A stretch of 56,196 nt of DNA from Acidobacteriota bacterium (GTDB lineage Bacteria > Acidobacteriota > Terriglobia > Bryobacterales > Bryobacteraceae), in the NCBI GenBank assembly GCA_026394015.1, contig JAPKZA010000215.1, forward strand, positions 20,654-76,849. Direction: 5' to 3'. Shown one piece after another: positions 3,842-43,364 of this stretch. The notes beneath the pieces are model-generated. The model ran no database searches. It saw nothing but the letters and a program-made list of their open reading frames with translations, and was not told where the DNA came from. The first letter of the stretch is position 1; each line of letters starts with the position of its first letter. The translations under genes and the position numbers were made by a program.

Positions 3842-4274
3842 TTGAATCGATGAGCGTGAGCTCGACAGAGTTTCGTTTTGTTTCTTGCACTCGAACGTTG
3901 GTCAGTTGGGGGGCCGAGGCTCCCAAGGAGCCCTTCCACTCGCGCTGCAGGTGGTCTCGAATCGCAAACGCCATGTTCTCGGTCGTCGATGGAACGGTCG
4001 CGAATTCGGGCACATCGACGTTCAAATAGCGATGATCGTAGCGATCCAACACCTCTCGCCGCACGAGAGAATCGAGTTCGGCGAGCGAGACGACCAAGCC
4101 GGTCCGCTCGTCCACCGAGCCCCGGACGGTGATGGAAACGACATAATTGTGGCCGTGGCCGTAGGGATTATTGCATTTGCCAAAGAGCCGCTGGTTCTCT
4201 TCGGCGCCCAACTGTTCCAAATGGAGACGATGGGAGGCCACAAAGCGGTAGTTCCGCGTCAGGTTGACCGTCAT
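3822..4274 (-). CDS. 6-pyruvoyl-tetrahydropterin synthase homologue with catalytic Cys
   Basis: The 150-residue protein is close to animal-type [12 protein letters not shown], then [35 protein letters not shown] and [11 protein letters not shown]. Zinc ligands are His15, His40 and His42. The catalytic triad is present as Cys34, Asp80 and His81. It may form 6-pyruvoyl-tetrahydropterin or 6-carboxy-tetrahydropterin (QueD reaction) from dihydroneopterin triphosphate; sequence alone does not decide. Its start codon shares a base with the stop of the upstream paralogue, and its end overlaps folE. No queC/queE gene is in the window, which slightly favours a non-queuosine role. Confidence 0.9.
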
Positions 4275-16101: not shown

Positions 16102-17379
16102 CTAGAAGAGCTCCGTTAGAGGATTCCCCGTCTGATCCTCTAACGAGTTCGCAATCTTGATCGGCCGTCCAATCGGCGTATCGTACTCCTTCGTCCAATC
16201 GATCCCAAACGCCTTGTAGATGGTCGCGAACAGATCCCCCATGCTCGTCGCCCGGTCCGTTACCTGCGCTCCCTCGGCGTCACTGGCGCCGACCACCCGT
16301 CCCCCGGCGATACCCCCACCCCCTATCGCCAACGACCAGCAGTTCGGCCAATGGTCCCGCCCCCGATCGTTATTGACGAACGGGGTCCGCCCAAACTCAC
16401 CCATCGCCAACACGATCGTCGAATCGTATAATCCTCGATCCTTCAGGTCGTCCAGCAACGCCGAAAGTGTCCGGTCCAGCGGCGGGCACAGCCGGTCCCG
16501 ATGGCCTTCGTCGTTCTTGGCATGCGTGTCCCACGAGTTGCTGTGGAACCCGGCCGCGGTCACGAAACGGGTTCCGGCTTCCACCAATCGGCGAGCCATC
16601 AACGCGCTCTGCCCCACCGCATCCCGCCCGTAGCGGTCTCGTACTTTCTCGGACTCCTTTGATAAATCAAAGGCCTCGCGCACCCCTGGGTTCAGCAGCA
16701 TCTTCCACGCCTGCGCGCTGAAACCGTCCATCTGCGCATGCTCGGCTCCGTCCACTAACTTGCGATAACGCCGATCCACCATCTGCAAAAAGCCCTGCCG
16801 ATTCTCGACCGCGGCGGCGGAAACAGATTTCGGCAGGCTCAAATCCGCAATCTGAAAGTCCGGCTTGCTCGGATCCGGAATGCACATTGGGTCGTACTCC
16901 GGCCCCAGGAATCCGGCGCGGAAATAGTCTTCATACTGGCGTGCCTTTTCCCATTGGGGAGCCAGCACGTGCGGTGGCATCGCATTGCGAATGCCCGTTT
17001 CCTTGGCGATAATCGCCCCGATGCTCGGAAACTGCATCGCGGGATTCACCTCGTGCCCCGTAATCGCGTAGTGCGTCCCTTGGGGATGATCGCTGCCCCG
17101 GGTGTGCATGCTCCGCACTAGGGACAAACGATCCATCCGCCGCGACACCTGCGGCAGCAACTCCGAAATCTGAATCCCCGGCACGTTGGTGGAAATCGGC
17201 TGGAACGCCGAGTTCGGCTTGGGGTCCCAGGTGTCAATCTGGCTGGGCCCACCTTCGAGCCAAAGCAGAATGCAGGATTGCGCCTTGCCCGTCGGCTTGG
17301 CCCGCAGCAGATCCGCCGTATTCAGGCCCAGAAAGCCGAGCGAGCCGGCCGATAGAAACTGGCGTCGAGAAGAGGGCAT
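16102..17379 (-). CDS. DUF1501 family protein (Tat-exported, sulfatase-like fold)
   Basis: The 425-residue protein has a twin-arginine-like N-terminus (SSRRQFLSAGSLGFLGL). It carries the DUF1501 landmarks LLWLEGGPSQIDTWDPKP, the ISELLPQVSRRMDRLSLVRSMHT region, NSWDTHAKNDEGHRD and VLAMGEFGRTPFVNNDRGRDHWP. The family belongs to the alkaline-phosphatase/sulfatase superfamily and is nearly always encoded next to PSCyt/DUF1549-DUF1553 proteins. It may act on sulfated or phosphorylated polymers, but no activity is established. It is the third gene of a minus-strand unit (TIG/PPC protein, PSCyt protein, DUF1501), separated from the second by two bases. Confidence 0.93.
   Translation of the reverse strand: MPSSRRQFLSAGSLGFLGLNTADLLRAKPTGKAQSCILLWLEGGPSQIDTWDPKPNSAFQPISTNVPGIQISELLPQVSRRMDRLSLVRSMHTRGSDHPQGTHYAITGHEVNPAMQFPSIGAIIAKETGIRNAMPPHVLAPQWEKARQYEDYFRAGFLGPEYDPMCIPDPSKPDFQIADLSLPKSVSAAAVENRQGFLQMVDRRYRKLVDGAEHAQMDGFSAQAWKMLLNPGVREAFDLSKESEKVRDRYGRDAVGQSALMARRLVEAGTRFVTAAGFHSNSWDTHAKNDEGHRDRLCPPLDRTLSALLDDLKDRGLYDSTIVLAMGEFGRTPFVNNDRGRDHWPNCWSLAIGGGGIAGGRVVGASDAEGAQVTDRATSMGDLFATIYKAFGIDWTKEYDTPIGRPIKIANSLEDQTGNPLTELF
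16114..16145. terminator. 11-bp perfect hairpin inside the 3' end of the DUF1501 gene
   Basis: The arms CGTTAGAGGAT (16114-16124) and ATCCTCTAACG (16135-16145) pair perfectly around a 10-base loop. The hairpin lies within the last codons of the DUF1501 gene, 15 bases past the stop of TonB receptor 1. It could end transcripts from both converging genes. There is no long T run, so a rho-independent role is inferred. Confidence 0.5.
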
Positions 17380-17381
17380 AA

Positions 17382-19886
17382 TCAGTGATTCTCCGCAAAT
17401 TCACGCGAACAAAGGATGGCCCAGACCAGGTCTTTCCATGCCTCGTTCCGGTCCGGACGGGCCGCCAGCGCGCCCAACAACTCGTGGCTCTCCGCCGACG
17501 CCGGCGGTCGGCCCAGCGCCGTCAAATAGAGGGTCCGCAGCATCGTCGCATCGGTCGCGCCGCTCTTGAGTTCCTGCTGCAGCCAACCCTCCGGCGCGGC
17601 TAACTTCTCGTTGTATATTGACCCGGCCAGCATGTGCAGCGCCTGGCCCAAATTGGCCTTGCCGGTCCGCTCCGGCAACGCCAGTCGGTTCGGTCGGCCG
17701 TACAAATCCAGAAACCGCGAATGGAACAAGTCCGGCTCGCGCAGCTGAATCGCCCGCATTCCGGCCGGCGTCCGCTGGGTCACCTTGCCCGTCGCCGTCA
17801 CGGTGGTCGTGAACCGTTCTTCCACTCCGGTCACGGTCGTGATCGCGTCGAGCAGCACCTCCGCCAGCAGCGGCCGCGGCAGCGCGTGGCTATAGTTCAC
17901 CCGGTCGGCTCGGTTGGTCGCGCTCGGCTCGGCCGAGAGCTGATAGGTCCGCGACATCACCATCGTTCGCATCAGCGCCCGCAGGTCATGCCCACCGCGG
18001 CGAAACTCTTCGGCCAATCGCGCCAGCAACTCCGGATGGGTCGCCGGATTCGTCGACCGGAAATCGTCGACCGGCTCCACCAGCCCGCGCCCAAAGAACT
18101 CGCTCCAAATGCGGTTCACCGTTGCCTCCGTAAAGTACGGATGCTGCACCATCCAATCCGCCAGCGCCTTCCGCGGATTCTCCCGTCCACTCGCCATCAC
18201 GGTCTTGCCGTCGAGCAGCGTTGGCCGAAGCTCCGCCTTGGTTCGCGGATGCAGCACCTGAATCTTGCCGTTCACCTCGCCGTTCCCCATCGCTTCATCC
18301 AGCGGATGGTCGAACACCACATACTCGTTCCCCGTATCGCCCATCTTGAACATCCGCCCGAAGAACGCCGCTAAGCCCCAAAACTGATCCTGGCTCCACG
18401 TCTCGTACGGATGGTTGTGGCACTGCGCGCACTCGAGCCGTCGCCCGAAAAACACCCGGACCTCTTCGGCCATCGTCTCTTCCGGACTGCCGATGACGTC
18501 GTACGGCAGGAAGTGCCGTGTCGGCCCGTCATAGCCTTGGGCCGTCAGCCGCTCCCACGCCATCCGGTCATACGGCTTGTTCTTGGCGATACTCTCCCGA
18601 ATCCACTCGCCATACATCTGGCTCCATTTCGGGTTGATCCCGTTGGCAAACACCGCCACCCGAAACAGGTCCTGGAAACGAAACGTCCAGAAGTCCACAT
18701 ACTCGGGTGACCCGATGAGCGCGTCGATCACCCGCTCTCGCTTCTTCGGATCCCGGCTCCGCACAAACTCTTCCACACGACCCGGTGGCGGCAGTGTTCC
18801 GGTCAAATCCAAACAGACACGGCGCAAGAACTCCGCATCCTGGCTGAGCGCGGAAGGCACCATCCGCAGCCGGCGCAGTTTTTCAAACACGAACTCATCA
18901 ATGAAATTCTGTCGTGGCACTGACGGATAGTTCGCCACCGGCTCGCCGATCACCCCGACGATCACCGCCGCCGCCTGGCCCGCGGCTCGCACAAGAATCG
19001 AAGTCTCGCCCAGCGCCGCCGCGTTCACGACACCGGCTTCGGAAATCGCGGCAATCGTCTTGTCACTCGAAACATACAGGGCCTGCGCCGTCACATCCTC
19101 GCGACGACCATTCGCCATCACCGCCGTCACCAGCAATCGATGCTGCTGCGTCTTCTCGAGCGAAAGGATTTTCGGGTAAACCTCCAAGCTCCGCACCCGG
19201 CTCGTATCGTCCTCCGCCGGGCCAAACGGTGCCCCTTGCCGCACCCACGCAAGAATCGTCCGGTACTCCTCCGAGTCCATCGCAAACCGCTTCCCGCCCC
19301 CGTGGGCCACCGCCCCGGTAGCCTTCCGCAGCAACAAACTGGCCTCCGGATTCTGCCGGTCGATCCGCGGCTTCCGCTCGCCCTTCGCTTCGGCCGAAAG
19401 CACCTGATAAGCGCCGCCCTGCACAATCCATTCATAGTCATCCCGCGGGAAAAGGGACGCCGCCGAAAGCTTCAAACCGCCCCGGCCCTTCACCCCGCCG
19501 TGACAAGCCGGAGAGTTGCACCCGCGCTTGGTCAGGATCGAGCCAATCGCCGACCGGAACCGAAACTGCTCCTCTCCCGCGGCCGTCTCCACCTGCCCCT
19601 TCGCGCTCGCTTGCCAACGGCCCCACTTCGCCGTCACCTGCATCGTTCCCGCCGCCCGAGCGGTCACCCGGCCACCCTCGCTCACCGTGCCTACCCCTGG
19701 CGCCGCGCTCCACTGCGCGACGTCAGTCAGGTCCCGCGTAGACCCATCGGCGTACTCAGCCACGAAGACGAACTGCTGCGCCGCTCCCGCTCTGTACAAA
19801 TGGAATTCGGAAGGCTCAAGCCGCACCGCCACCGGTTCCGCGCCCCACGAGAGGCTCGCCCAGGCCAGCAGCAACACGGCTCTCAT
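17382..19886 (-). CDS. PSCyt protein: Big_2 domain, haem-c-like motif, DUF1549 and DUF1553
   Basis: I choose ATG 19886, which overlaps the upstream stop (ATGA) and starts a signal peptide (MRAVLLLAWASLSWGA); the frame is open to 19973. The 834-residue product has a bacterial Ig-like Big_2 domain (about 20-100), a CNSPACHGG motif (Cys123, Cys128, His129; the CX4CH variant usual in this family), and DUF1549 (FLRRVCLDLTGTLPPPG, DFWTFRFQDLFRVA, RLECAQCHNHPYETW). DUF1553 follows (ALADWMVQHPYFTEATVNRIWSEFFGRGLVEPVDDFR). The family, abundant in Planctomycetes and Acidobacteria, is presumed to be a periplasmic redox or polysaccharide-degrading component partnered with DUF1501. Its exact reaction is unknown. 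Confidence 0.92.
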   Translation of the reverse strand: MRAVLLLAWASLSWGAEPVAVRLEPSEFHLYRAGAAQQFVFVAEYADGSTRDLTDVAQWSAAPGVGTVSEGGRVTARAAGTMQVTAKWGRWQASAKGQVETAAGEEQFRFRSAIGSILTKRGCNSPACHGGVKGRGGLKLSAASLFPRDDYEWIVQGGAYQVLSAEAKGERKPRIDRQNPEASLLLRKATGAVAHGGGKRFAMDSEEYRTILAWVRQGAPFGPAEDDTSRVRSLEVYPKILSLEKTQQHRLLVTAVMANGRREDVTAQALYVSSDKTIAAISEAGVVNAAALGETSILVRAAGQAAAVIVGVIGEPVANYPSVPRQNFIDEFVFEKLRRLRMVPSALSQDAEFLRRVCLDLTGTLPPPGRVEEFVRSRDPKKRERVIDALIGSPEYVDFWTFRFQDLFRVAVFANGINPKWSQMYGEWIRESIAKNKPYDRMAWERLTAQGYDGPTRHFLPYDVIGSPEETMAEEVRVFFGRRLECAQCHNHPYETWSQDQFWGLAAFFGRMFKMGDTGNEYVVFDHPLDEAMGNGEVNGKIQVLHPRTKAELRPTLLDGKTVMASGRENPRKALADWMVQHPYFTEATVNRIWSEFFGRGLVEPVDDFRSTNPATHPELLARLAEEFRRGGHDLRALMRTMVMSRTYQLSAEPSATNRADRVNYSHALPRPLLAEVLLDAITTVTGVEERFTTTVTATGKVTQRTPAGMRAIQLREPDLFHSRFLDLYGRPNRLALPERTGKANLGQALHMLAGSIYNEKLAAPEGWLQQELKSGATDATMLRTLYLTALGRPPASAESHELLGALAARPDRNEAWKDLVWAILCSREFAENH

Positions 19887-21499
19887 TGCACCACCATAAG
19901 CGGGAAACGCTTCTCCAAAATCGGTGCCGCCAAGCGCTGCTCCTTTACCGGCCGCACCACCACCCGGGGCCACGCGATCGTCTCGGTCAACGTCGCGCCT
20001 TCCGCCACGTTGAGCAGAAACGAGAAAGACTGGGTCGTTTTTGGAATGTAGCGTTCAATCCGTCCAGCGTTCTGCAGCGGCGGCCGTTCCACCGGATTCT
20101 CCGCCCCCGGCAGCACCGTCACCCCCGGCGGCAGGCCTTCTATCGTCGCCATCACCGGATCCCGAAAATCCTCCTCCCGCTCCAGTTGCAACGTCACCAA
20201 GCGCACCTTCCCTACCGCCAGATTCAGCCGGTCCTCCGGCATCTCCACCCGCCCGACGTGCGGAATCTGCGGGCGAATCAAGACTCGGTAGAAAAACTCT
20301 GGTCGGCCATGATCGGTCGTGATGTCGCGAACTTGCACGGTATAGTCCCCCGGGGCGGTAATCGCGAAGGTGGTCTTGGCCTGAATCATTTTCATCATGT
20401 ACAAACCGTTGTTGTTGCGTTTGGTATGGACATTGGTCGCCACCTCCCGCCCCGTCGCATCGAACACGGTGACCACCGGATTGAACTCCGGCAGCGTCGC
20501 CTCCGGCGTTTCAATTTCGATCGCCAGTTGCATCGCCCGCTCAATGTGCAGACGCGCTTTATGCACCATCGCCGGACGGCTCAATCGTCCCTCCAGAATC
20601 CCCGGCAACGCAAGCACCCCTTCGCCCGCCTCCGTTCCGGCCAGCCGTACCGGGGGCGGAGGAGACAGGGCCACCCCGCCCCGCGCCTGCAACTTACCCA
20701 TCCAGTCGCCGCCCAGTTGACGCACGAAGCTCCTTTCATTCCAATCCGGCCGCGCCATCGGATGCCGCCAGCGGCGTTCGCCCGCGCCACTCCCCACCCG
20801 TAGAAAGTAACTCGCCCCCGCTCCGCCATGTCCTGCAAATCCAGCAACTTGCACCCGGTACCGTCCAGCTTGCTGAACAACATGCGTCAGCCGCGCCTGC
20901 GTCGTCAATCCCGGAAAAAATAGTTCCTCGTCGTTAAACGCCAAACGCTTCCAGCCCTTGGTCGAAAACCAACTATCCGCCGCCGGTTCCTGCAGCGTCA
21001 CGACCGGGTCGAATGCGCTCCCCCCGGCCACCACTTCGAACGTCAACACCTCTCCCGCCTTTGCCTCGACAGCGTAAAGGTCTACCTCGCCCGGTTCGGC
21101 CAAGCTGCCATTCACGACGAGCCCCGGGGTCAGCATCAATTCCGGCTTCTCCCCCGACACCGTCTCCCTCACCACATGCCAAGTGACCGCGTTGGTCACC
21201 CCCCGTGGCCCCACCGCCCGAATCCGTTTCTCCCCCGGCGTTACCGATGTATCCAACGTGATCTCGGCCATCAGTCGATCCGCCGCAGCCTCCACCAACC
21301 GCACCCGCACCCCCGCCTCTTCCACCGACAGGCCACGAATCGCCGCTAAACCAGTTCCCGCAATAGCAACCCGGTACGTAGTGCCCGCCCGCCCCGCCAA
21401 CGGATTCATTCCCTGCAGAACCGGCTCAGCCACCGCCGCACCCAGCGCAAGCCCAGTCGCCCACAGCACTGCCGCGACTGCTCCCGCTGAGGAATTCAT
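19883..21499 (-). CDS. Secreted protein with TIG/IPT-like and PPC domains
   Basis: The ATG at 21499 begins a clear signal peptide (MNSSAGAVAAVLWATGLALGAAVA); the frame is open to 21577. The 538-residue product starts with a TIG/IPT-like Ig fold (PLAGRAGTTYRVAIAGTGL). A PPC-type domain follows (LVVNGSLAEPGEVDLYAVEAKAG...AFDPVVTL), then further beta-rich segments including a second PPC-like stretch (TTFAITAPGDYTVQVRD). Such proteins head PSCyt/DUF1501 operons in Planctomycetes and Acidobacteria and are predicted to bind substrates or the partner proteins. It is the first gene of the three-gene minus-strand unit and is divergent from TonB receptor 2, with 272 bases between. Confidence 0.85.
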   Translation of the reverse strand: MNSSAGAVAAVLWATGLALGAAVAEPVLQGMNPLAGRAGTTYRVAIAGTGLAAIRGLSVEEAGVRVRLVEAAADRLMAEITLDTSVTPGEKRIRAVGPRGVTNAVTWHVVRETVSGEKPELMLTPGLVVNGSLAEPGEVDLYAVEAKAGEVLTFEVVAGGSAFDPVVTLQEPAADSWFSTKGWKRLAFNDEELFFPGLTTQARLTHVVQQAGRYRVQVAGFAGHGGAGASYFLRVGSGAGERRWRHPMARPDWNERSFVRQLGGDWMGKLQARGGVALSPPPPVRLAGTEAGEGVLALPGILEGRLSRPAMVHKARLHIERAMQLAIEIETPEATLPEFNPVVTVFDATGREVATNVHTKRNNNGLYMMKMIQAKTTFAITAPGDYTVQVRDITTDHGRPEFFYRVLIRPQIPHVGRVEMPEDRLNLAVGKVRLVTLQLEREEDFRDPVMATIEGLPPGVTVLPGAENPVERPPLQNAGRIERYIPKTTQSFSFLLNVAEGATLTETIAWPRVVVRPVKEQRLAAPILEKRFPLMVVQ

Positions 21500-27225: not shown

Positions 27226-28979
27226 CACCGCTGCATCCACCGCAAATTTCGCTCCATTAAGTCCCGCTGATGCGCCCGCTCCGCTATCCCATGCCCCTCC
27301 CGCGGATACACCACGTTTTCCACCGGCACGCCCCGGTCCCGCAATGCCTGATAAATCGGCGCCGTAAAGTTCATATCCAGCGCCCCAATCTGTAACAGCG
27401 TTGGTGTCTGGATATCTTTCAACTTACCCCAGTAAGAATGCCGCGCATAGTTCTCCGGCACCTCCCACGGCGTTCCCCCAAAGTAAGTCCACAACACCTC
27501 CCTCGCCCCCTCGAACAACCCATAATAGGCCGCCCAATCCACCGTCGGCGCCCCCACGGAAGCGCCTCGGAATCGCCTCGTCTGCGCAATCGTCGACCCC
27601 GTCAAAAACCCGCCGTAACTCCACCCCATCACCCCCAGGCGATCCGGATTCGCCACCCCCCGCCGCACTAACTCGTCCAACCCCGTCATCACATCGTCCA
27701 AATCGCCCACCCCCTGCGCCAGCGTGTTCTTCTTCCGAAACGCCTCCCCATAGTTCGAACTCCCGCGAAAATTCGGCGCAAATACCGCAAAGCCACTCTG
27801 CAAAAACGCCACCGTCGGGTACGTCCGCCCATTCGGGAACGCCGTCAACGCCACCCCCGTCGGCCCCCCGTGCAACTCCACGAGCACCGGCACCCGCGTC
27901 CCCTTCGTGTAGCCAAACGGCAGCCACAGCACACCCTCCACCTCCAGCCCATCCCCCGCCTTCCACCGCACCACTTCGCTGCTCACCGTTGGCAACTCCG
28001 CCAACCCCGCAAACACCCGCGTTAAGGTCTGCTCCTTCCCCGCCTCCCACAACACAATCTCCGGCGGATGCGCCGCGTCGGTCTTCAAAAACACCGCCCG
28101 CCGCAAATCCGCGCTAAAACTCGCCGCCCCCGCCACACCCTCCGCCAACCGCTCCCCCTTCCCGCTCTCCACTTCCACCTGCCACAGCTCATCCCGCGTT
28201 CCCGCTCCCGCCGTAAAGATCAGCCGCTTCCCATCCCCCGACCACGCATACGCGTTCCCGTTCCGGAACACGTCCACCGGCAATGCCCGCGTCAAATATC
28301 GCACCGTCCCGCCGCCCGTCGGCACCATCCCCACCTGCCGCTCGTTGAAGTAGTTCAACGACCCGCACTGGGAATGGAACACGACCCACTTCCCATCCGG
28401 CGAATACCCCGGTTCGGCGTCCCGACCCGGCTGCGTCACCAGTGGCGTCTCCACCCTCGTCGCTAGATCTACCTCCACCAAATCCACGTGGAAAATGTCC
28501 TGCGGCTTCGGCGTCGCCTGCAGCGCCAGCGCCGCCCGCTTGCCGTCCGGGGACACGGCAAACGAAAGCACATGCCGCTCCGCCCCGCTCACCTGCTTGC
28601 CTCCCACATACAGCCGCCCGAACCGCAGACTCTCGCGGTTCACCTCCGGATCCGGCGCCGCCGCGTCATCGGTCGCTAGATAAGCTACGTCCTTGCCTAC
28701 CCAGGCAAATGCCGTCACCCCGCGACCCACCGCCTTCCCACCCACCATCACCTTCCCCCCCGACAAGTACGCCAACTGCGTCCCATCCGCCGACCAACGC
28801 GGCTGCCCGCCCTTCCCCACCGCCACCGCCTTCCCCTCCGGCAGTTCCGCCCGCATCACCGTCCCGTTCAACACGTATGCGTACGCCCCACCGTCGGGCC
28901 GCATCTGCGGATCGCCCAGCGTCGACAATCCTAGAAGTGCCTCCACCGTCCAGAGGGCGGCGGCAACGATGCTAAGCAA
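27216..28979 (-). CDS. S9-family serine peptidase (dipeptidyl/acylaminoacyl-peptidase-like)
   Basis: The product has an N-terminal hydrophobic signal, a WD/PD40-like propeller (blocks such as PRWSADGTQLAYLSGGKV, SPDGKWVVFHSQC) and a C-terminal alpha/beta-hydrolase domain. The nucleophile motif is GWSYGG, the Asp region is GALDMNFTAPIY and the His is in PREGHGI. It hydrolyses short peptides outside the cytoplasm. The frame has no ATG near its start. I choose TTG 28979 (587 aa) because a perfect AAGGAG lies five bases upstream, inside the end of the DUF1501 gene, giving an 8-base overlap. TTG 29015 (599 aa) is the alternative and would give a basic n-region. It is the third gene of the PSCyt-DUF1501-peptidase unit. 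Confidence 0.92.
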   Translation of the reverse strand: MLSIVAAALWTVEALLGLSTLGDPQMRPDGGAYAYVLNGTVMRAELPEGKAVAVGKGGQPRWSADGTQLAYLSGGKVMVGGKAVGRGVTAFAWVGKDVAYLATDDAAAPDPEVNRESLRFGRLYVGGKQVSGAERHVLSFAVSPDGKRAALALQATPKPQDIFHVDLVEVDLATRVETPLVTQPGRDAEPGYSPDGKWVVFHSQCGSLNYFNERQVGMVPTGGGTVRYLTRALPVDVFRNGNAYAWSGDGKRLIFTAGAGTRDELWQVEVESGKGERLAEGVAGAASFSADLRRAVFLKTDAAHPPEIVLWEAGKEQTLTRVFAGLAELPTVSSEVVRWKAGDGLEVEGVLWLPFGYTKGTRVPVLVELHGGPTGVALTAFPNGRTYPTVAFLQSGFAVFAPNFRGSSNYGEAFRKKNTLAQGVGDLDDVMTGLDELVRRGVANPDRLGVMGWSYGGFLTGSTIAQTRRFRGASVGAPTVDWAAYYGLFEGAREVLWTYFGGTPWEVPENYARHSYWGKLKDIQTPTLLQIGALDMNFTAPIYQALRDRGVPVENVVYPREGHGIAERAHQRDLMERNLRWMQRWVK

Positions 28980-30411
28980 GAATCTCCTTAATCGGCTTCC
29001 CGTAGTCGACTTCAATCCGCTTCCGTCCCGGTATGTCCAACTTCCTCGGATCCAGGCCCATCTGATGCAGCACCGTCGCGTGGATATCGGTCACGTAGTG
29101 CCGATTCTCCACCGCATGAAAGCCAATCTCATCGGTCGCCCCATGCACCACCCCGGCCTTCACCCCGCCCCCGGCCATCCACACCGAGAACCCAAACGGA
29201 TGGTGGTCCCGGCCGTTGGAAGCCTCGGCGCCCGGCGTCCTGCCAAACTCGGTCGCCCACACGACGAGTGTCTCGTCGAGCAACCCCCGCTGCTTCAAAT
29301 CCTTCAGCAACGCCGCGATCGGCTTATCCACTTTCATCGCCAAATCGCCGTGATTCTTCTTCAAATCCTTATGCGAATCCCACGCGTTGCCCGCGCCACC
29401 GTGGTAAACCTGCACGAACCGAACCCCGCGCTCGGAAAGCCGTCGCGCCGCCAAACACACCTGACCAAATGGCTTCGTGATCTCCTGATCCAACCCGTAC
29501 ATCCGCTTCGTCTCTTCGCTCTCTTCCTTATCCTGAATCGCCTCCGGCACCGCCATCTGCATCCGAAACGCCAACTCGTAACTCTTGATCCGCGCCCGCA
29601 GCGCGGCATCATGCGGATACTCCACCGCCGACATCCCGTTCAGCTTCTTCAGCAGAGCAAACTCCCGCTCCTGGTCCGCCTTCGATAGCTCTTTCCCCGG
29701 CGAGACAAACGGCAGCGGATCATCCGGATTCACATCCAGCGACACCCCCGCGTGCTCCGGCCCCAAGTAGCCCGACCCGTGCGTCCCGTTCCCCCCGCAG
29801 CAATCCCCCGGCGGCTCGCCCAGCACGACGTAGGCCGGCAGGTTCTCGTTCATCGATCCCAACCCGTAATGCACCCAACTCCCCAACGTCGGCAGGTAGC
29901 CATCGAAAATGTGCCGCCCCGTGTGGAACTGCAGAATCGCCCCGTGGTCGTTGTCCGTCGTCCAAGCCGAACGAATCAGCGAGATTTCGTGCATCTGGTC
30001 GCCGATGTGCGGGAACCAATCGCTCACCGCCACGCCGTTCTTCCCGCGTTGCTTAAACCCGGTCTGCATCGGGTACAGCGTCAGCTTGATCTGGTGCTGC
30101 CCCGGCACAAACGCCTTCAAGTTTTCCTTCACAAACGGGTTCGTCAACGTATCCCGATGCGGCGTCTCTGATAGCTGCTTCCCGGCGTGCTTGTTCAACT
30201 CCGGCTTCGGGTCGAACGACTCCATGTGGCTTACCCCGCCCAGCATGAACAGCCAAATCACCCGCTTGGCCTTTGGAGCAAAGTGTGGCACGGCGTCGGC
30301 CACCAACTTCTGCGGCAGCAGGGTCCCCAGCGCCAACCCCGCCAGCCCCATCCCGGCGTCAGCTAAAAAAACCCGCCGACTCTTGCCGTCCGAACATAAC
30401 CGTTGTGCCAT
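28972..30411 (-). CDS. DUF1501 family protein, second copy
   Basis: ATG 30411 is preceded by AGGAGC, so I prefer it to the ATG at 30426; the product is 479 residues. The N-terminus (KSRRVFLADAGMGLAGLALG) is twin-arginine-like. DUF1501 landmarks are VIWLFMLGGVSHMESFDPKPELN, the TDNDHGAILQFHTGRH segment, GNAWDSHKDLKKNHGD and VVWATEFGRTPGAEASNGRDHHP. Compared with the copy at 16102-17379 it is a longer subtype carrying the LGPEHAGVSLDVNP segment. It lies 11 bases after the PSCyt gene and overlaps the S9 peptidase start. It is presumably exported and acts with the PSCyt partner; the reaction is unknown. Confidence 0.93.
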   Translation of the reverse strand: MAQRLCSDGKSRRVFLADAGMGLAGLALGTLLPQKLVADAVPHFAPKAKRVIWLFMLGGVSHMESFDPKPELNKHAGKQLSETPHRDTLTNPFVKENLKAFVPGQHQIKLTLYPMQTGFKQRGKNGVAVSDWFPHIGDQMHEISLIRSAWTTDNDHGAILQFHTGRHIFDGYLPTLGSWVHYGLGSMNENLPAYVVLGEPPGDCCGGNGTHGSGYLGPEHAGVSLDVNPDDPLPFVSPGKELSKADQEREFALLKKLNGMSAVEYPHDAALRARIKSYELAFRMQMAVPEAIQDKEESEETKRMYGLDQEITKPFGQVCLAARRLSERGVRFVQVYHGGAGNAWDSHKDLKKNHGDLAMKVDKPIAALLKDLKQRGLLDETLVVWATEFGRTPGAEASNGRDHHPFGFSVWMAGGGVKAGVVHGATDEIGFHAVENRHYVTDIHATVLHQMGLDPRKLDIPGRKRIEVDYGKPIKEILA

Positions 30412-30422
30412 AGAAGCTCCTG

Positions 30423-32876
30423 TCACCGCACCGTTACGAAATCATTGTGGTTCAACAAAACGTGCACCAGGCTCTCGCGCCCTTTGCTCGGCCCGTTCAA
30501 ATAAGCAACCGACTCCCGCAACTCCCCGTCCTTCGGTGCCCGGCCCAACAGCCGTTCAAACACCGCCCGCACAAACGCCTCCGGCTCCGTGACTTTCGCC
30601 AGGTCCGCCTCCACCGCCCGCGCCACCACGAAACCCAGCTTCCCGTTCGCCAGCGCCAAAGCCTGCTGCGGCACAATGCTCTCGCTCCGCTGAAAGCACT
30701 CAATCGGGCTCGCCGCATCGAACGCCTTCATCAGGTCCATCTGCAAGTCGGGCGCGGTCCGAAAGTACAAACTCCGCCTAAAAACTTCGTGCCCTTTGGT
30801 CTCGTCAATCTCCGGCCCGCCCATCGTCAAATCCAACTTCCCCGCCACGGCCAACGCGCTATCCCGCACCACCTCGGCTTCCATCCGCCGCACGTTCATC
30901 CGCCACAGCGACACGTTGTCCGGGTCGGCCTTCATCTGCTCCGGGGCCACCGTCGAAGCCAGCCGATACGTCTTCGACGTCACCATCAACCGGTGCATCG
31001 CCTTCATATCCCAGCCCCGCTCCATGAACTCCACGGCCAGCCAATCCAGCAGCGCCGGGTTCGTCGGCGCCTGCCCGCTCTTGCCGAAATTGAAAACCGT
31101 CGCCACCAGCGGTGCGCCGAAATGCCGCGCCCACATGTGGTTCATCGCCACCCGCGCCGTCAACGGATTGTCCTTCGCCGTGATCCACTTCGCCAGCGCC
31201 AACCGCCGCCCCGAACTTGTCGAAGGGTACTTCGGCCCGATCGGCGTATAGCCCTCCGCTGGCTCTTTCAACGCCTTGGCCGCCGCCTCCAACCGCGTCG
31301 CCGCGCCCACCAGTTTGTTATTCGCAAAGTCATGCCGCGCTCGGATCATCTCCGCATCGGCCTTCAATTCGTTGGCCTTCTTTTCGAGTTTCCGCGCCTC
31401 TTCGGCGAGCTCTTCCGCATTCGCCGGCACCGGCGTTTGCAGCGTCGCCAGGTCCGCGCGGATCCGCGCTTCCAGCGCGGGCAAGTCCGCCTTGCGGAAG
31501 GCGATGTCCTTCTCCGCGGCCGCGATCAGCGCTTCCGGCTCCGGCTTCTCTTTCGCTTTCTTCCAATCCGCCTCGGCTTTGTCGATCGCCGCCTTCGCCG
31601 CCGCGATCAGGTCCCGGCCCACGAACTCCCGCGCGTCCGGAAAGGTATCCACGAGCGGCAAGGTCACTGGTTCAATCTTCAACTCCGGCTTCCCGAAGAA
31701 CCGCGGAATTGCTGGCTGCATCACAGCCGAGCTATCGGGAGTCGCCTCGTTCCCCCGGATGAACCGATACGTCACCGCGGCGGCGTTCGCATCGTAGGCC
31801 CGCGGCAGGCCGTCTTTCAAAACATCCGCTTCGCCCGCCACGCGGTCTGTCCGCACCTCATGCGACTCGAAGAATGCGCGGAACTTGTAATAGTCCGTAT
31901 GTGGAATCGGGTCGTACTTATGCGTGTGGCACCGGGCGCATTTCATCGTCACCCCCAAAAACGAAGCGGCGGTGTACTCCGCCGTATCCTGCAACCAAAC
32001 GTTCCGGTTGAACAAATACCAGTTGCGAACCAGAAACCCCGTCGCGCGCGCCACTTCCGGATTCCCCGGTTCCAGTTCATCCCCGGCCAGCATCTCCTGA
32101 ATCATCCGGTCGTACGGTTTGTTCTTCGCGAGCGCTTCGACGGTCCAATCCCGCCACCGCCAAATGTGCCGCGCACTGTAGCGCACCTGGCCCGATTTGC
32201 GATAGCCGTACCAATCGGAATACCGCCAGATATCGAGCCAATGCCGACCCCACCGTTCGGCGTAACGCGGGCTTGCCAGCAGCGAGTCGACCACCTGCTC
32301 GTACTGCCCACCCTTCTCAAAACTCTTGATCTGCTCCGGCGTCGGAGGCAGCCCGATCAAGTCGAGATAGACCCGCCGCAGCAGCGTCCGCTTATCCGCC
32401 TCAGCCACGGGCTTCACTCCCTTCTTCGCCCGACCCGCCTCGACTAACTCGTCGATCGATTTTGCCGCGCCTTTCACAGGCATGCGGAACGCCCAATGCT
32501 TCGAGGCGTCGCTGATCAACTCGGCATCGGGGTCGACGGCCGACGTCCCGTAGGGCACCCCGGCCTTCACCCACTCTTCGAAGATCTGGATCTCCGCCGC
32601 GCTCAGCTTTTTGCCTTTGAACGGCATCCCGGGCTCGGTGATATGGGCGACGACTTTGTAAAGCGGCGAATCCGGCGGGTTCCCCAAAGTGACGACCGGC
32701 CCATGCTCGCTGCCCAGCAGCAGCGCTTCCCTGGTTGAGAGGTCCAGACCACCCTGCTTCACTTTCGCGTTATGACAGCCGAGGCACTTCGCATGGACAA
32801 GCGCCACCGCCGCGCTCGGCTCCGCCTGCAGCAAGCCAATCGATCCGAATAGACCAAGGAGCCAACGGAACTTCAT
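30423..32876 (-). CDS. PSCyt protein: haem-c motif, DUF1549 and DUF1553, with coiled coil
   Basis: The 817-residue exported protein has a signal peptide (WLLGLFGSIGLLQA). Its cytochrome-c-like PSCyt1 domain carries a canonical CLGCH (Cys31, Cys34, His35). DUF1549 follows (LLRRVYLDLIGLPPTPEQIKSF, RYAERWGRHWLDIWRYSD, CARCHTHKYDPIPHTDYY), and then a charged helical insert of about 150 residues, probably coiled coil (KAAIDKAEADWKKAKEK, EEARKLEKKANELKADAE). DUF1553 closes the protein (RLALAKWITAKDNPLTARVAMNHMWARHFG). It heads the unit PSCyt-DUF1501-S9 peptidase. The predicted role is a periplasmic redox-linked component of polymer degradation. Confidence 0.93.
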   Translation of the reverse strand: MKFRWLLGLFGSIGLLQAEPSAAVALVHAKCLGCHNAKVKQGGLDLSTREALLLGSEHGPVVTLGNPPDSPLYKVVAHITEPGMPFKGKKLSAAEIQIFEEWVKAGVPYGTSAVDPDAELISDASKHWAFRMPVKGAAKSIDELVEAGRAKKGVKPVAEADKRTLLRRVYLDLIGLPPTPEQIKSFEKGGQYEQVVDSLLASPRYAERWGRHWLDIWRYSDWYGYRKSGQVRYSARHIWRWRDWTVEALAKNKPYDRMIQEMLAGDELEPGNPEVARATGFLVRNWYLFNRNVWLQDTAEYTAASFLGVTMKCARCHTHKYDPIPHTDYYKFRAFFESHEVRTDRVAGEADVLKDGLPRAYDANAAAVTYRFIRGNEATPDSSAVMQPAIPRFFGKPELKIEPVTLPLVDTFPDAREFVGRDLIAAAKAAIDKAEADWKKAKEKPEPEALIAAAEKDIAFRKADLPALEARIRADLATLQTPVPANAEELAEEARKLEKKANELKADAEMIRARHDFANNKLVGAATRLEAAAKALKEPAEGYTPIGPKYPSTSSGRRLALAKWITAKDNPLTARVAMNHMWARHFGAPLVATVFNFGKSGQAPTNPALLDWLAVEFMERGWDMKAMHRLMVTSKTYRLASTVAPEQMKADPDNVSLWRMNVRRMEAEVVRDSALAVAGKLDLTMGGPEIDETKGHEVFRRSLYFRTAPDLQMDLMKAFDAASPIECFQRSESIVPQQALALANGKLGFVVARAVEADLAKVTEPEAFVRAVFERLLGRAPKDGELRESVAYLNGPSKGRESLVHVLLNHNDFVTVR

Positions 32877-35219: not shown

Positions 35220-35796
35220 TTACTTGCGAGACAGGAAGCCTTTTTCCGGTGCCCACTCTGTAAATCCCGGGCCGACGATATAGTGATTGCAGCAGTCATC
35301 ACCGTCGGCCAGCGTCTTCGCGCGGGTGAACTGGAGTCCCATCAGGTTCGCCATCGATTGGGCCCAAGTGGAGCGGCAGCCGCCCCCGATCGGTTCTTCC
35401 ACGACGATCCGCCAGTCCATCGGATGCAGCAGTCCGCGTTCTCCCCGCGACGGTGCGGCATGCAGCGACTGCACAAACATTTTGGAGGTCGCCCGGCGGC
35501 CGAGCAAGGTTCTGGCAACGACAGGGAATCGCCGCAGCAGGTTCTCGTTGAGGACCCAGAGCAATTCACCGGCATGCTCCCGAGTTTGATCGAACTGGCG
35601 GAAGGCGGGAAAGAAGGGCACGTAGGCCGTGATGAAACCATAACTCCTAGCGGCGACGCTGCTTTCGAGATCAGGGATTCTGGGGATCAGATCGCGCAGC
35701 TTGGCATCCGCGATGTCCCGGAAGCGAGGGTAGAAGGCCTCGCCGTAGGTCTGTTTCAGCGAACATTAGTACCCGGTAGGCCGTGCGCGTTTTCAT
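35220..35796 (-). pseudogene. Frameshifted gene resembling L-2-amino-thiazoline-4-carboxylate hydrolase family
   Basis: ATG 35796 opens MKTRTAYRVLMF. After a frameshift near 35,765 the coding-like frame is LKQTYGEAFYPRFRDIADAK, then the VAARSYGFITAYVPFFPAF segment and on to the stop at 35220. That second frame has no start of its own before GTG 35621, so the gene is broken near its 5' end. The C-terminal part (FTRAKTLADGDDCCNHYI) has the TLAxGDxxCxxxI layout of ATC-hydrolase-like proteins; this assignment is tentative. It lies between the P-type ATPase and the DUF6064 pseudogene on the same strand. Confidence 0.6.
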
Positions 35797-35848: not shown

Positions 35849-38404
35849 TCAACTTTGTGCCGGCGGGACCGGCGGACGATGAGGCGAAACCTTCGGCGGT
35901 TCTCGATGCCATTGGAAAGCTTTGATCGCTTCAAACCAGACCAGGCTCAGGGCGGCGGATCCGAAACAGAGTCCGATGTCGTCGGCGTGAAGGGTGCTGA
36001 AGTGGAATAGGTTCCGTAGGAATGGCACATAGAGCGCCAGCGCCAAGACGGTGAAGGCGCCGCTTATGACCCACCACATCGCCGCGTTGGGCGTTTTTAA
36101 GATCCCGCGAATGGACAGCGACCAAGAGCGATTCGTGACGATCATGGCCACGTTGGCGAGGACCAAGCAGGTGAACGTCAGGGTCCGCGCATCGTTCGCG
36201 CCTTGGCCGCGGTGGAGCGCGAGGCCGAAGATCGCCAGCAAGATGGCCAGGACGCCCGTCCCCTGCAATAGGCTCGTCACGATCATCTGCCGGTTGAAGA
36301 GGTGCTCCGAGGCCGGGCGCGGCGGCCGGTGCATGACGTCGGCTTCCTCTTGTTCGGCCTCGAAGACGACGGAGCACGCGGGGTCAATGATTAGTTCCAG
36401 GAAGGCGCTGTGGATCGGCTCCAGGATCAAGGGCCAACGAAAAAGGACGGCACACAGGGAGAGACCGGCGATGGGGACGTGGATGGCGAAGACGTAGGCC
36501 AACGCTTTTTTGAGATTGTCGAAGATCCGACGGCCGAGCCTTACGGTCTGCACAATGGAGGAAAACTCATTGTCGAACAGAACCAGGTCGGCGGCTTCCC
36601 GGGCGACGTCGGTTCCGCGCTGCCCCATGGCGATGCCGATGTGCGAGGCCTTCAGCGCGTTCACGAGCTGCAGTTTCTGTTCGAGAACGGCGCGGGCGAA
36701 GACGTGAGCGCGACTCACCCGATCGCGCAGCACGGCTTCGTTCATGGCCGCCACTTCGGGTCCGGTGATGGCTCCCTCCGGGCTGTCCTGACCAATCTGA
36801 CGAGCGATACTCAGGGCGGTGCCGGGATAGTCGCAGGTGATCATGATGACGCGGATTCCGGCGGCTTGACACTCCCGAATCGCGCTGGGAACGGCCGGGC
36901 GCACGGGGTCCGCCAGAGCGACGAGGCCGAGGAACTCGAAATTGAAATCGTGCCGTTGGTCGGGGAGGGAGCCCGGGGAACCGACGGCTTTGGCCACCCC
37001 GAGGACACGCAATCCGTCGGTCGCCATGCCGGCAACGATTTCGTTGAGGGCTGCCGCGTCCTCACCCGACATGGGGCAAAGGTCAGCGATTGCTTCCGGT
37101 GCGCCTTTGGTGGCGATGACGAGTATTGCGTTATCGGGCGAAGTCCACACTTCGGAGATGGCCAAAAGGCTTTTTGCCAAGGGATACTCGCGAACGACTT
37201 TCCAGTTGGCGTGCAAGTGTTCGGTACCCTGCAAGGCTTCGTCGCCGAGCGTGCGAATGGCTCGGTCCATGGGATCGAAGGGGTCTGGCTGGCTGGCGAG
37301 CATGGCGAATTCCGCCAACTCGTGAAACTCTTCGGGGATGACGACGGCAGACGGCTTTGAGAAATCGAACGCTTGGCCATTCGCGAAGAGCTTGGCGACC
37401 GACAGCTGGTTCATCGTGAGCGTTCCCGTTTTGTCGACGCACAAGGCCGTGGCGGCACCGAGCATTTTGATGGCGGCGACACGCCGCGTGAGGACTCTCT
37501 TCTGCGAGATCCGCCAGGCGCCGAGGGCGAGAAACACGGTGAGCACGACGGGGAGTTCCTCGGGCAGGATCGCCATGGCCAACGTCAATGCCGCGAGGAA
37601 TCCGCGCAACCAGTCGCCGCGGGTGAGCCCATAGAAGACGACGAATAAGCGGCAAAGGGCGAGCCCGACCAAGGCCAGGACCCGCACCATGTGGCGGGTA
37701 TCGCGCTGGAGCAAGGTGGGTTCCTGCTCTTGCTCGCGCAATGACTTGCCGATCTTGCCGAGTTCGGTTTGGGCGCCGGTTGCCTTGTGCTTGGCCAATC
37801 CCGTTCCCCGAACGACCAGGGTGCCGGAGAAGACGAACGGGAGATCATCGCCGCCGGGGCGGGCCATGGCCAGATCCTCTGCGGAAGCCTGCTTCCGCAC
37901 GGGGACGGATTCGCCGGTCAAGAGAGACTCGTCGGTGGAGAGATTGACGGCGGAGAAAAGGAGGGCATCGGCCGGGACGCGGTCACCTTCTGACAGAACC
38001 AGGATATCGCCGGGAACGACCTCTCGACCGGCGATTCTTTTGCGCTGCCCTTGGCGGATGACGAGGGCGCGCGGACTGGACAAGTCGCGCAGTGCCTCGA
38101 GCGCCCGCTCTGTTTTGCGTTCCTGATAGAGCGTGATGGCGATGACCACGCCGACGAAGATCAGGAGGATGAGCGCTTCTTCCGCATTGCCCAGGAGCAG
38201 ATAGGTGCCGCCGCAGGCGAGTAAGAGGAGCAGCATCGGCTCGCGGACGACTTCGAGAATGGTGCCGAAGAGGGAGCGCGGCTTGGCCGAGGGAAGCTCA
38301 TTCAAGCCGTGGGTGGCAAGAGCGGCCGCGGCGTCGGCATCAGACAGGCCCGAGGGGCTCACTTCCGGATCAGTGGGTGAGATGGTTGTTGTTGCGGTTG
38401 CCAT
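35849..38404 (-). CDS. P-type cation ATPase lacking the TGDGVND catalytic segment
   Basis: The 851-residue ORF is a PMCA/SERCA-like P-type ATPase: N-terminal cation_ATPase_N, actuator TGES (163-166), M4 PEELP (281-285), phosphorylation DKTGTLT (Asp324), KGAPE (433-437), and M5-M10. Two defects stand out. TGD is TCD (523-525). Between the two family ALKA repeats, the segment that should read about [20 protein letters not shown] is absent: the sequence goes [14 protein letters not shown] (583 on). The magnesium-coordinating GDGxND Asp is therefore missing, so normal pumping is very unlikely although the frame is open. It starts nine bases after a broken haem-binding gene and precedes two pseudogenes. 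Codons end in C. Confidence 0.93.
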   Translation of the reverse strand: [851 protein letters not shown]

Positions 38405-38413
38405 AGCGCCTCG

Positions 38414-38642
38414 TTACTGTCTCGTCGTCGTTTGTACACCGGCGAGGAGCGTTTCCCGTTCGGACTTGCTGAGCTTGGCCCCCGGATGGAGGGGCACATA
38501 GAACCAGAGCGGCATTTCTCCCTCCAGTGTGTCGCGCTCGGTGAGCTAGGCGATGGGGGCGACACTGCTGCACCAGGGGTACTGTTTTTCATTCGTGGGG
38601 CAATCGAACCTAGCCCGTTTTGCGAAGCCCAGGATCTTCATT
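38414..38642 (-). pseudogene. Haem-binding domain (Haem_bd) protein pseudogene
   Basis: ATG 38642 has a good AAGGAG eight bases upstream. The frame reads MKILGFAKRARFDCPTNEKQ, then the YPWCSSVAPIA segment, hits TAG at 38546-38548, and continues LTERDTLEGEMPLWFY and PLHPGAKLSKSE to TAA at 38414. It matches the Haem_bd layout (CxxCHSNExxYPWYS, EGEMPLWFY, HPxAKLS). However, the CxxCH is changed to RFDCP, the N-terminal membrane or signal part is deleted after MKILGFA, and a stop interrupts the domain. The ribosome-binding site and start are preserved, pointing to recent loss. It heads the operon with the damaged ATPase. Confidence 0.75.
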
Positions 38643-39882: not shown

Positions 39883-40062
39883 GCCAGATCATTTTGACGC
39901 AAGCTTGAGCGCGCGATTTTGCAGAGCCGTGCGTTAAGTTTTTTTCGCCGAGTGGCTGCAGGGCAGGCAATTCCTCCTCTCGTTTCGATTCCGTTACACG
40001 CGTTCACCGGACGTTCACGTGGCTGTAACCGAATAGACACACCCCTGCTTCAGACTCGAACT

Positions 40063-43000
40063 ATGCGATCCATTGTTCTTTCCTGTCTTTGGGCCGCCCT
40101 GTTGATGGCCCAAGTGGATCAAGGCCGCATCAGCGGTAAGGTAACCGACACCAGCGGAGCGATCATTCCCGGCGTGACGATCCAGGTGCGGAACGAAAAA
40201 CCGGAGCGGAGCGCAAAGTGACCTCGGGCGAGGCGGGAACCTTCTCGGTTTCGAACTTGAGCCCCGCGACGTACGCGATTGTAGCGGCGAGTCCGGGGTT
40301 GAGCGACGCAAAATTTCGCGGAATTAATCTGGCGGTGGGCCAGGAACGTTCGGTAGAGATTGTAATGCAGCCCGCCACGACGAGCACCGAAGTAACGGTA
40401 TCGAGCGGGGATCTGGTGGTAATCGACGTGAGTTCGGCGTCGGTGGGAGCGAACATCAACGCGCGGGAAGTGGCGGAGATGCCGATCAACGGCCGTCAGA
40501 TCTCGCAGTTGTACCTGTTAGCGCCCGGTGCGCAGACTTCTGGCGGTGGCAGCTATGACAATATTCGCTTTTCCGGACGCGCCAATCAGCAGAACGCCGT
40601 ACGGTTTGACGGGGTCGAAGCGTCGTCGATTATCGATGCGTCGCCTGGCAATTTGAACGGACAGACCTCATCGAGTTTCCGCCTGCAGGCGAGCCTGGAG
40701 ACGGTGCAGGAGTTCCGGGTGGAATCGAGCAACTATCCGGCGGAGTACGGCACGGGCACCGGCGGCCAGATCAGCATTGTGACGAAGTCCGGCGGCAACG
40801 AGTATCACGGCAGCGTGTTCGAATACCTGCGCAACGACAAGCTCGACGCGCGGAATTTCTTTGATGGCACGGACAAGTCGCCGCTGCGGTTGAACCAGTT
40901 TGGTGGATCCTTAGGCGGCGCGTTGATCAAGAACAAGCTATTTTTCTTCGGTCGCTACGAGGGCTTGCGGCAACGGGCGGGTTTCCCGCTGGTGGGCCAA
41001 GTGCCGAGCGCGGCGGTGCGGAATTTGCCGACATGCGCGGCTGGTTTGACGACGCGCTGCGTGGACTCGGCGGTGAAGCCGTTGTTCGGTGCGTTTCCGG
41101 TGGGCAATCGTGGGGCGACCACGAATCCTGATTTCGACATCGCACAATTGGACGGTAAGGCTGTCGTGAATGAGAATTCGGGCAGCATCCGGCTCGACTA
41201 TCGGCCAAGCGACAAGGACAGCGTGAGTTTCCGTTGGTTCCGGGACGATGGCACTTCGACGTCGCCCTTTGACGTCTCGGGCAGCGCGTTCCGCCAAGCG
41301 GCGCTGGCGCAGAACGGCATGCTGAGCTATCAGCGGTTGATTTCACCGAGCTTGATTAATGAAGTGAAGTTCGGCTATAACGGGCCGAAGACGCGGACAA
41401 GCGGCGTGGCTCCCGTGGTGCCGGGGCTGGATCTTTCCGGGTCGACGATCAACATTACCGGGGCGAACGTCCTGGTGGGCATCGGCGGGCAGGGAGCTAG
41501 CGCCGGGGTGGCAATTCCATCCGGCCAAGTACGCGCCAGCAGCGCGACCAATGGACGCGGCCAGCCGTATACGAGCTATTCGCTCAGCTATGTGGACACG
41601 CTGAACTGGGTGAAAGGGAAGCACAACTTGAAGCTTGGCGGGGAGTTCCGGCAGGTGCGCATGTATACGGACCGCCTGGGTGGCGTGACCTACGCCTTCG
41701 GCAACCTCGCTTCGTTTTTGGCCAACACGCCTTCGATCACGGTGAACGGCGATGTCAGTTCTCCCAGCCCGTTCAACAACGGAGCCACGGGCAATCGGTT
41801 TGGAAAGAGCGAGATGATGAGCGTCTACGCCCAAGACGAGTATCGTTTTTCTTCGACCCTGACGATGAGCTACGGCTTGCGCTATGAATACTACACGCCG
41901 TGGCGCGAAGATCGGAACCTGGTGGTGCTTTACAACGTCACGACCGGTGGCTTGGACGCGCCCGGGAGCCGGGCTTTCTATCAATCTTCGAAGGCGGCGT
42001 TTGGACCGCGCTTGGCGTTTGCCTGGTCGCCGCAGAAGTTCGCAGGCAAGACGGTGCTGCGCATCGGCTCCGGCTACTACTATGGTCCAGGCCAAGGCGA
42101 GGACTTGATTCAGCCAATTGAAAGCGACCGCGTGAGCACGACGGCGACGGGGCGTTATCCGATCGATCCGCTGCCGGTGATTCGCAATTTCAATATCAAT
42201 ACGGCGACGGGGATCGGGGTGCGGGCCTATTCGTCGGGCTATCGCGTACCAGAGAAGATTCTTTCTTACACCGCATCGCTGCAGCACACGCTGCCAGGCG
42301 GCGCGGTGTTGCAAGTGGCCTATGTGGGCAGCCAGGGGCGCAACCTGTTCCTGCGCAGCACCACGAATAAGGTGATCGGGGTGACGATGAACCAGACGAC
42401 CGGCGTGGGCGCCGTGGTGCGGGAGTTTGGTCCGCGGTTCGGCGAAATCGAGTACAAGACGACGGGCGGAACGGATCACTATGATTCCATGCAGACGACC
42501 TTGAACCGGCGTTTTTCCAGGGGCTTGACGCTGGGTGCGCAATGGACCTGGGGCCATTCGATCGGCAACAGCGGCGGCTCGAATGAGGCCAACACCGCCA
42601 CCAACCCGTACAACTTCCGGCAAGACCACGGGAACAACGCCTTCGACGTACGGCATAGCGCGAACATCTCCGCGCTCTACGAATTGCCGTTCGGCAAAGG
42701 TCGGCGGTATAGCAGTTCGATGAGCCGGGGCGCCGAGGCGTTGCTGGGCGGTTGGCAGATGGGCGGCATCGTGAATACGCGCACGGGCCTGCCGGTGGAT
42801 ATCCGGATTACGCGACCCGACTTCGTCTATCGCGATACGCGGAATGACACGTTCGTGAACGCGCCGATTCTCGTGGGCGGGGTGCCGGTGACGGTGCCGG
42901 TGATTAACGTTCCGGGCGGCGGCAACTCGCGTGACGTGCGATTCCCGAGCGTGGTGGCGGGAGTGAGTCCTTTTTCGACCTCGAGCGACCGCCGATTTGT

Positions 43001-43364
43001 TCTGAATCCGGCCGCGTTCTCGGTTCCCGCTCCGGGCACTTTCGGTAACCTGGGCCGGGGAGCGGTGCATGGCCCCGGGCTGACGCAGTTCGACCTGACT
43101 CTGCAAAAGAAGTTCACCATCACCGAGCGCGTGAACACCGAGTTCCGGGTGGAGATGTACAACCTGCTTAACCGGGCTAACTTCTCTAATCCGGTGGCGC
43201 GTTTGAACAACGTGCTGGGCACCGCTACGAATCAATTGCAGCCGGGCCAGGCGTATGGCACTGCGACGGGCGGAGCGTTCGGCACGGTGCTGCAGACAGT
43301 GGAAAGCGCAGTAGGGTTGGGCGCGCAACGGCAGATTCAACTGTCTTTGCGGATTAGCTTCTAG
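40063..43364 (+). pseudogene. Oar-type TonB-dependent receptor 3, frameshifted near its 5' end
   Basis: ATG 40063 begins a signal peptide (LSCLWAALLMAQ) and carboxypeptidase-regulatory-like domain (GRISGKVTDTSGAIIPGVTI) that stops at 40221. The remaining receptor (EFRVESSNYPAEYGTGTGG, HGSVFEYLRNDKLDARNFF, barrel, terminal ISF) is open in another frame from 40218. Restoring one A in the A-run at 40196-40200 would give NEKTGAERKVTSGEAGTFSV, the expected TGxxR...SxxxGxF motif, and one 1100-residue protein. So the gene differs from an intact receptor by one base in a homopolymer: a real mutation, a slippage site or an assembly error. It is otherwise complete. Codons are G-ending, unlike receptors 1 and 2. 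Confidence 0.9.

Follow-up and report, generated by a model that had tools for sequence, protein, structure and literature searches.

In the HAD-type P domain of P-type ATPases, the TGDGVND strand and loop lie beside the strand bearing DKTGT and help to coordinate Mg2+. Two papers (PMC10779151, PMC6592433) give the GDGxND motif a part both in coordinating Mg2+ and in phosphorylation of the aspartate, and a study of the TGDGVND loop of Na,K-ATPase in Mg2+ binding and phosphorylation appears in the reference list of PMC5354106. By sequence, the best solved relative of the protein described here is LMCA1 (lmo0841; PDB 9euq, 6zhf), a type II Ca2+-ATPase of Listeria, with a match over residues 11–831 at E 1e-97; LMCA1 has the GDGxND motif, whereas our protein is without it. 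P-type ATPase homology combined with a degenerate GDGxND is also found in the P4-ATPase-like domains of apicomplexan guanylate cyclases (PMC6592433). Those domains, however, are fused to the cyclase in a protein that is retained, while the ATPase considered here is free-standing, in a locus that appears to be decaying. As for the route by which such a motif may disappear, a comparison of Haloquadratum walsbyi strains (PMC3119063) reports deletions between short direct repeats of 4–20 bp, in which a single repeat copy remains at the junction, as it does in the present case.

The window (the whole stretch of 56,196 nucleotides that was analysed) belongs to contig C105 of a draft genome of an Acidobacteriota bacterium of the Bryobacteraceae (574 contigs, 7.9 Mb). 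On its minus strand, at 35849–38404, there is an open frame of 851 aa with an ATG start, recognizable as a P-type cation ATPase with a P domain short by 20 codons. We regard it as very probable that this is a pseudogene, the remains of a recently dead P-type ATPase, and that together with the upstream gene for a haem-binding protein it forms the relic of a two-gene unit.

The initial annotation had predicted that automatic annotation would call the protein a working pump, and the scores agree: the protein reaches 206 bits for TIGR01494, with a cut-off of 62.3 bits (NCBIfam), which is the sole cut-off it reaches among the 19 NCBIfam families listed, and it stands above all four of the Pfam cut-offs for PF00122, PF00689, PF00690 and PF00702. 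The phosphorylation motif DKTGT is kept (D324), as it is in all 80 aligned orthologues, and TGES and KGAPE are present as well. The membrane part retains the stretches PEE, HVPIAG and ELIIDP, which, going by SERCA, presumably line the ion path. The transported ion is not fixed by these comparisons, because the protein misses the equivalog cut-offs of the PMR1-type Ca2+-ATPases (TIGR01522; 424 vs 798.3) and the SERCA-type Ca2+-ATPases (TIGR01116; 337.6 vs 703.4), scores that the deletion itself lowers, and because its M5 and M6 stretches are unlike those of LMCA1: the latter reads YLFAGNLGAII and FINLVNDS, whereas M6 of the window protein reads FLELIIDP and its M5 also differs.

The comparison rests on the best 80 of 209 orthologues found (L036–L115), a set that leaves out the window itself (L001) and all other loci numbered below L036, among them L007, which duplicates the L036 locus. 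For 12 of these 80, the BLAST match overran the stop of the gene near the C-terminus, and the stop was set to X. When these proteins are aligned, TGDGVND is present in 80/80 and missing from the window, so that no clade of orthologues without the motif exists among them. Among them is the sister locus, L036, in genome G004 of the same genus (Acidobacteria bacterium RH-18aug17-384), which is 83% identical and has the gene order Haem_bd, then ATPase. Relative to it the window protein is 20 residues shorter at the TGDGVND segment, with the gap lying exactly between two copies of ALKA. A 20-column gap placed between ALKA copies, at a motif that all 80 relatives possess, is, to judge from the alignment, not chance. 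Outside the 80, G058 has an orthologue that fits the pattern of the intact motif, and the match in G036 splits likewise at the deletion. Across the phylum the intact-motif DNA pattern is found in 50/396 genomes, the pattern being too strict for a census.

At the junction itself (36647–36658, minus strand) there remains a single 12-nt ALKA repeat, GCGCTGAAGGCC, written as the reverse complement of the forward strand. The sister has two such copies, GCGCTGAAGGCG and GCGTTGAAGGCG, which are 60 nt apart, identical at 11/12 bases and in one shared frame. With both repeats thus preserved in the sister and in the same frame, one direct-repeat deletion is the simplest event: slippage in replication, or recombination, between the same-frame 12-nt repeats (ALKA...ALKA) would have taken out 60 nt, and the open reading frame remains in frame because both ALKA copies read in one frame. 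We infer this repeat mechanism, as we do the order of events. The two central claims of the initial annotation, that 20 codons including TGDGVND had been lost in frame between ALKA repeats and that the scar bears the signature of recombination or slippage, are both upheld by the comparison with the sister. What sets the window apart from the Haloquadratum walsbyi case (PMC3119063) is that the repeats here spell a protein motif twice in one frame, to which ORF callers are blind.

With 80/80 orthologues bearing the motif and its role published, the further proposal that the Mg2+-coordinating Asp has been lost, and catalysis with it, appears sound. Without the lost segment, the aspartyl phosphate should not form, and the P domain may misfold; since the strand beside DKTGT goes with the segment, harm should come to folding as well as to catalysis. 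The activity is probably lost and probably nothing useful is made. In an AlphaFold2 model of the sister, the missing stretch includes the strand at 590–594, and either the helix at 600–605 or the end of the helix at 573–585 is lost with it, depending on which ALKA copy survived. Mean pLDDT is 76.8 for the window model and 80.0 for that of the sister; over residues 571–590 the window has 74 and 73 vs 86 and 90 in the sister, and the sister is itself low at 611–630 (51 and 48). As a test of folding the AlphaFold2 models are not decisive, the confidence of the two differing only mildly.

The deletion is not the only departure from the family. Outside it, the window deviates at five of the 158 columns that are invariant in the 80 others, the coordinates of these replacements (all minus strand) having been derived from their codon numbers and confirmed in the DNA letters. 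Two flank the phosphorylation site, E313K (37466–37468) shortly before DKTGT and M334L (37403–37405) shortly after it. G524C (36833–36835) turns TGD into TCD, P574L (36683–36685) turns PEQK into LEQK, and D612N (36569–36571) replaces an aspartate. G524C and P574L had been singled out in the earlier reading of the sequence, correctly in both instances, as both the Gly and the Pro are invariant in the other 80. The P domain accounts for 58 of the 158 invariant columns and contains all five replacements (hypergeometric 0.006, with domain bounds drawn post hoc). Private changes at columns of this invariant type number 0 in the sister, five in the window and six in L114, the most deviant other relative. 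When one relaxes the standard to columns conserved at 95% or more (n=300), the window deviates at 28, of which 15 belong to the deletion and 13 lie elsewhere; the latter figure compares with 6 in the sister, 16 in L114, 12 in L079 and 10 in L039. By this count the window is not extreme, and the contrast is greater with the sister than with the most divergent relatives.

The strongest indication of decay at this locus is one that the initial annotation did not contain, namely a broken Haem_bd gene adjoining the ATPase upstream. Its first piece (38549–38641, minus), in which the CFDCH of the sister has become RFDCP and the CxxCH pattern is thereby lost, gives no Pfam hit alone. An in-frame TAG follows (38546–38548, minus) where the sister has Trp, and then the second piece with its stop (38414–38545, minus), which has a 78-nt gap relative to the sister and still matches PF14376 at E 2.5e-7. 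The remnant ends 9 nt ahead of the ATPase ATG, and no N-terminal part of it is recognizable in the window. The sister gene, by comparison, is intact (154 aa, L036 3541–4005, PF14376 at E 3.8e-36, with the CFDCH motif), and its reading frame runs over the earliest in-frame ATG of the ATPase, at 3995, an arrangement that suggests a single transcription unit. Thus in the sister both genes are whole, with TGDGVND and CFDCH, whereas in the window both are damaged. A search across the genus gave this place, with one internal TAG, as the sole match in the genome of the window. The remnant differs from the sister gene by Ka 0.18 and Ks 2.2 over 69 codons, a stretch too short and too saturated for a test of selection.

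Among the 80 relatives and the regions of G004, G036 and G058, the ATPase has a Haem_bd neighbour in just two places, the sister (L036; L116 is the same place) and the window; more distant Haem_bd genes exist elsewhere in the genus, 11/19 genomes giving some match. Close orthologues of the ATPase are likewise restricted: of the 19 genomes in the genus, 2 have them, namely G004 and the genome of the window. In 60 kb of the sister contig blastn detects no synteny beyond the gene pair, bar one 282-bp match. Conserved neighbours were considered as a clue to function and rejected, none being widely shared among the 82 relatives surveyed: the widest family reaches 13/82 (25 largest clusters listed, with the ATPase and overlapping frames set aside by eye), and several of the 82 have short flanks. 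The two-gene unit is accessory. A more distant P-type ATPase (L002; 35% identical) with the motif intact is also encoded in the genome of the window, and both points make the loss of the unit plausible. Elsewhere in the genus, a P-type ATPase match with one internal TGA is seen at G017:C10:133277–134512.

Other features of the window may be recorded here. On the minus strand at 35223–35765 there is an open stretch of 181 codons in which the first ATG/GTG/TTG is the start of a 133-aa ORF; it resembles ATC_hydrolase weakly (PF14196, E 0.0087, below the cut-off), none of 60 relatives matches the 133-aa part, and it is perhaps another truncated gene. Two DUF1501 and PSCyt2/PSD1 gene pairs lie on the minus strand at 16102–19973, with Big_2 matches, and at 28972–32876, with a PSCyt1 match. 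On the plus strand, 40218–43364 encodes an outer-membrane barrel protein (PF25183) with a listed start that falls inside CarboxypepD_reg, of which only profile positions 33–82 are covered; its first residues may lie in ORF 39919–40221, in another frame.

Parsimony with L037 as outgroup places 53 derived ATPase residues on the window branch and 22 on that of the sister (binomial p 0.0004, or p 0.005 once neutral branch length is used as a weight). Domain by domain, the window and sister counts are 19 and 6 for P, 21 and 7 for the membrane and other parts, 6 and 2 for A, and 7 and 7 for N. A branch model of codon change, fitted to 810 codons in 6 taxa and rough in its values with synonymous sites near saturation, gives an omega of 0.065 for the window branch vs 0.036 elsewhere (LRT 5.3, p 0.02). 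When the sister branch is the sole reference, and with the same near-saturation, the rise is not significant (LRT 1.86, p 0.17). That omega is still as low as 0.065 implies that most of the window branch was under selection, and the simplest reading is long constraint, then a short spell without it. The ATPase frame had rightly been called open, for there is neither a stop codon nor a frameshift in the 851 codons. We reject the open frame as evidence for selection, however, since few stops are expected from the replacements and the repeats preserve the frame by themselves: for this codon make-up, and counting stops only, 20–60 neutral replacements would bring 0.7–2.6 stops, and the probability of seeing none is 0.07–0.48.

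Might the protein instead still be produced, fold in the membrane and be retained there without catalysis, acting as a sensor, a scaffold or a passive channel? The open ATPase frame, the window-branch omega of 0.065, the keeping of the membrane stretches PEE, HVPIAG and ELIIDP, and the confinement of the five private changes to the P domain would all suit such a protein, for which the degenerate GDGxND of the PfGCalpha ATPase-like domain (PMC6592433) offers a precedent of another kind. Against it, the motif-less state occurs in 0/80 orthologues, the partner Haem_bd gene is broken, and replacements are up not just in the P domain but in the membrane and other parts (21 vs 7) and in the A domain (6 vs 2), if not in the N domain (7 vs 7). 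We judge retention of this kind quite unlikely, and it is very unlikely that the deletion made a membrane pseudo-pump that persists in some non-catalytic role, the P domain being where most of the constraint was lifted.

A different objection is that the copies of the 12-nt repeat were joined, or strains blended, in assembly, and that the true gene is intact. The genome is indeed a 574-contig draft, and a second genome of the species was looked for and none found. Common assembler k-mers exceed 12 nt, however, which counts against such an error, and so do the five additional replacements at sites that are invariant in the 80 others; nor does a single misjoin explain a neighbour that has both a stop and another gap. 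An assembly artefact is in our estimate highly improbable. It is barely conceivable that the ATPase is a working pump in which another segment stands in for the lost motif: DKTGT, TGES and KGAPE are present, and nothing else speaks for it, while GDGxND is gone, TGD has become TCD and PEQK has become LEQK, with G524, P574 and TGDGVND invariant in the 80. The death of the pump along with its haem-binding partner thus remains the reading that we prefer.

Among the titles and starts of abstracts in the literature searched, we found no fitting report of a P-type ATPase pseudogene with an in-frame catalytic deletion, and nothing on a P-type ATPase pseudoenzyme. The locus offers a clean case of a known process, that of a pseudogene hidden from ORF-based annotation, in which same-frame protein repeats (ALKA...PALKA) guarantee that an essential motif is lost in frame. 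The same accident is open to others of the family, given that the repeat pair is at least 11/12 alike in 10 of the 80 orthologues, nine of them at 11/12 (the sister included) and one at 12/12. Counts of pumps drawn from genomes should therefore check the catalytic motifs besides the reading frame and the profile score.
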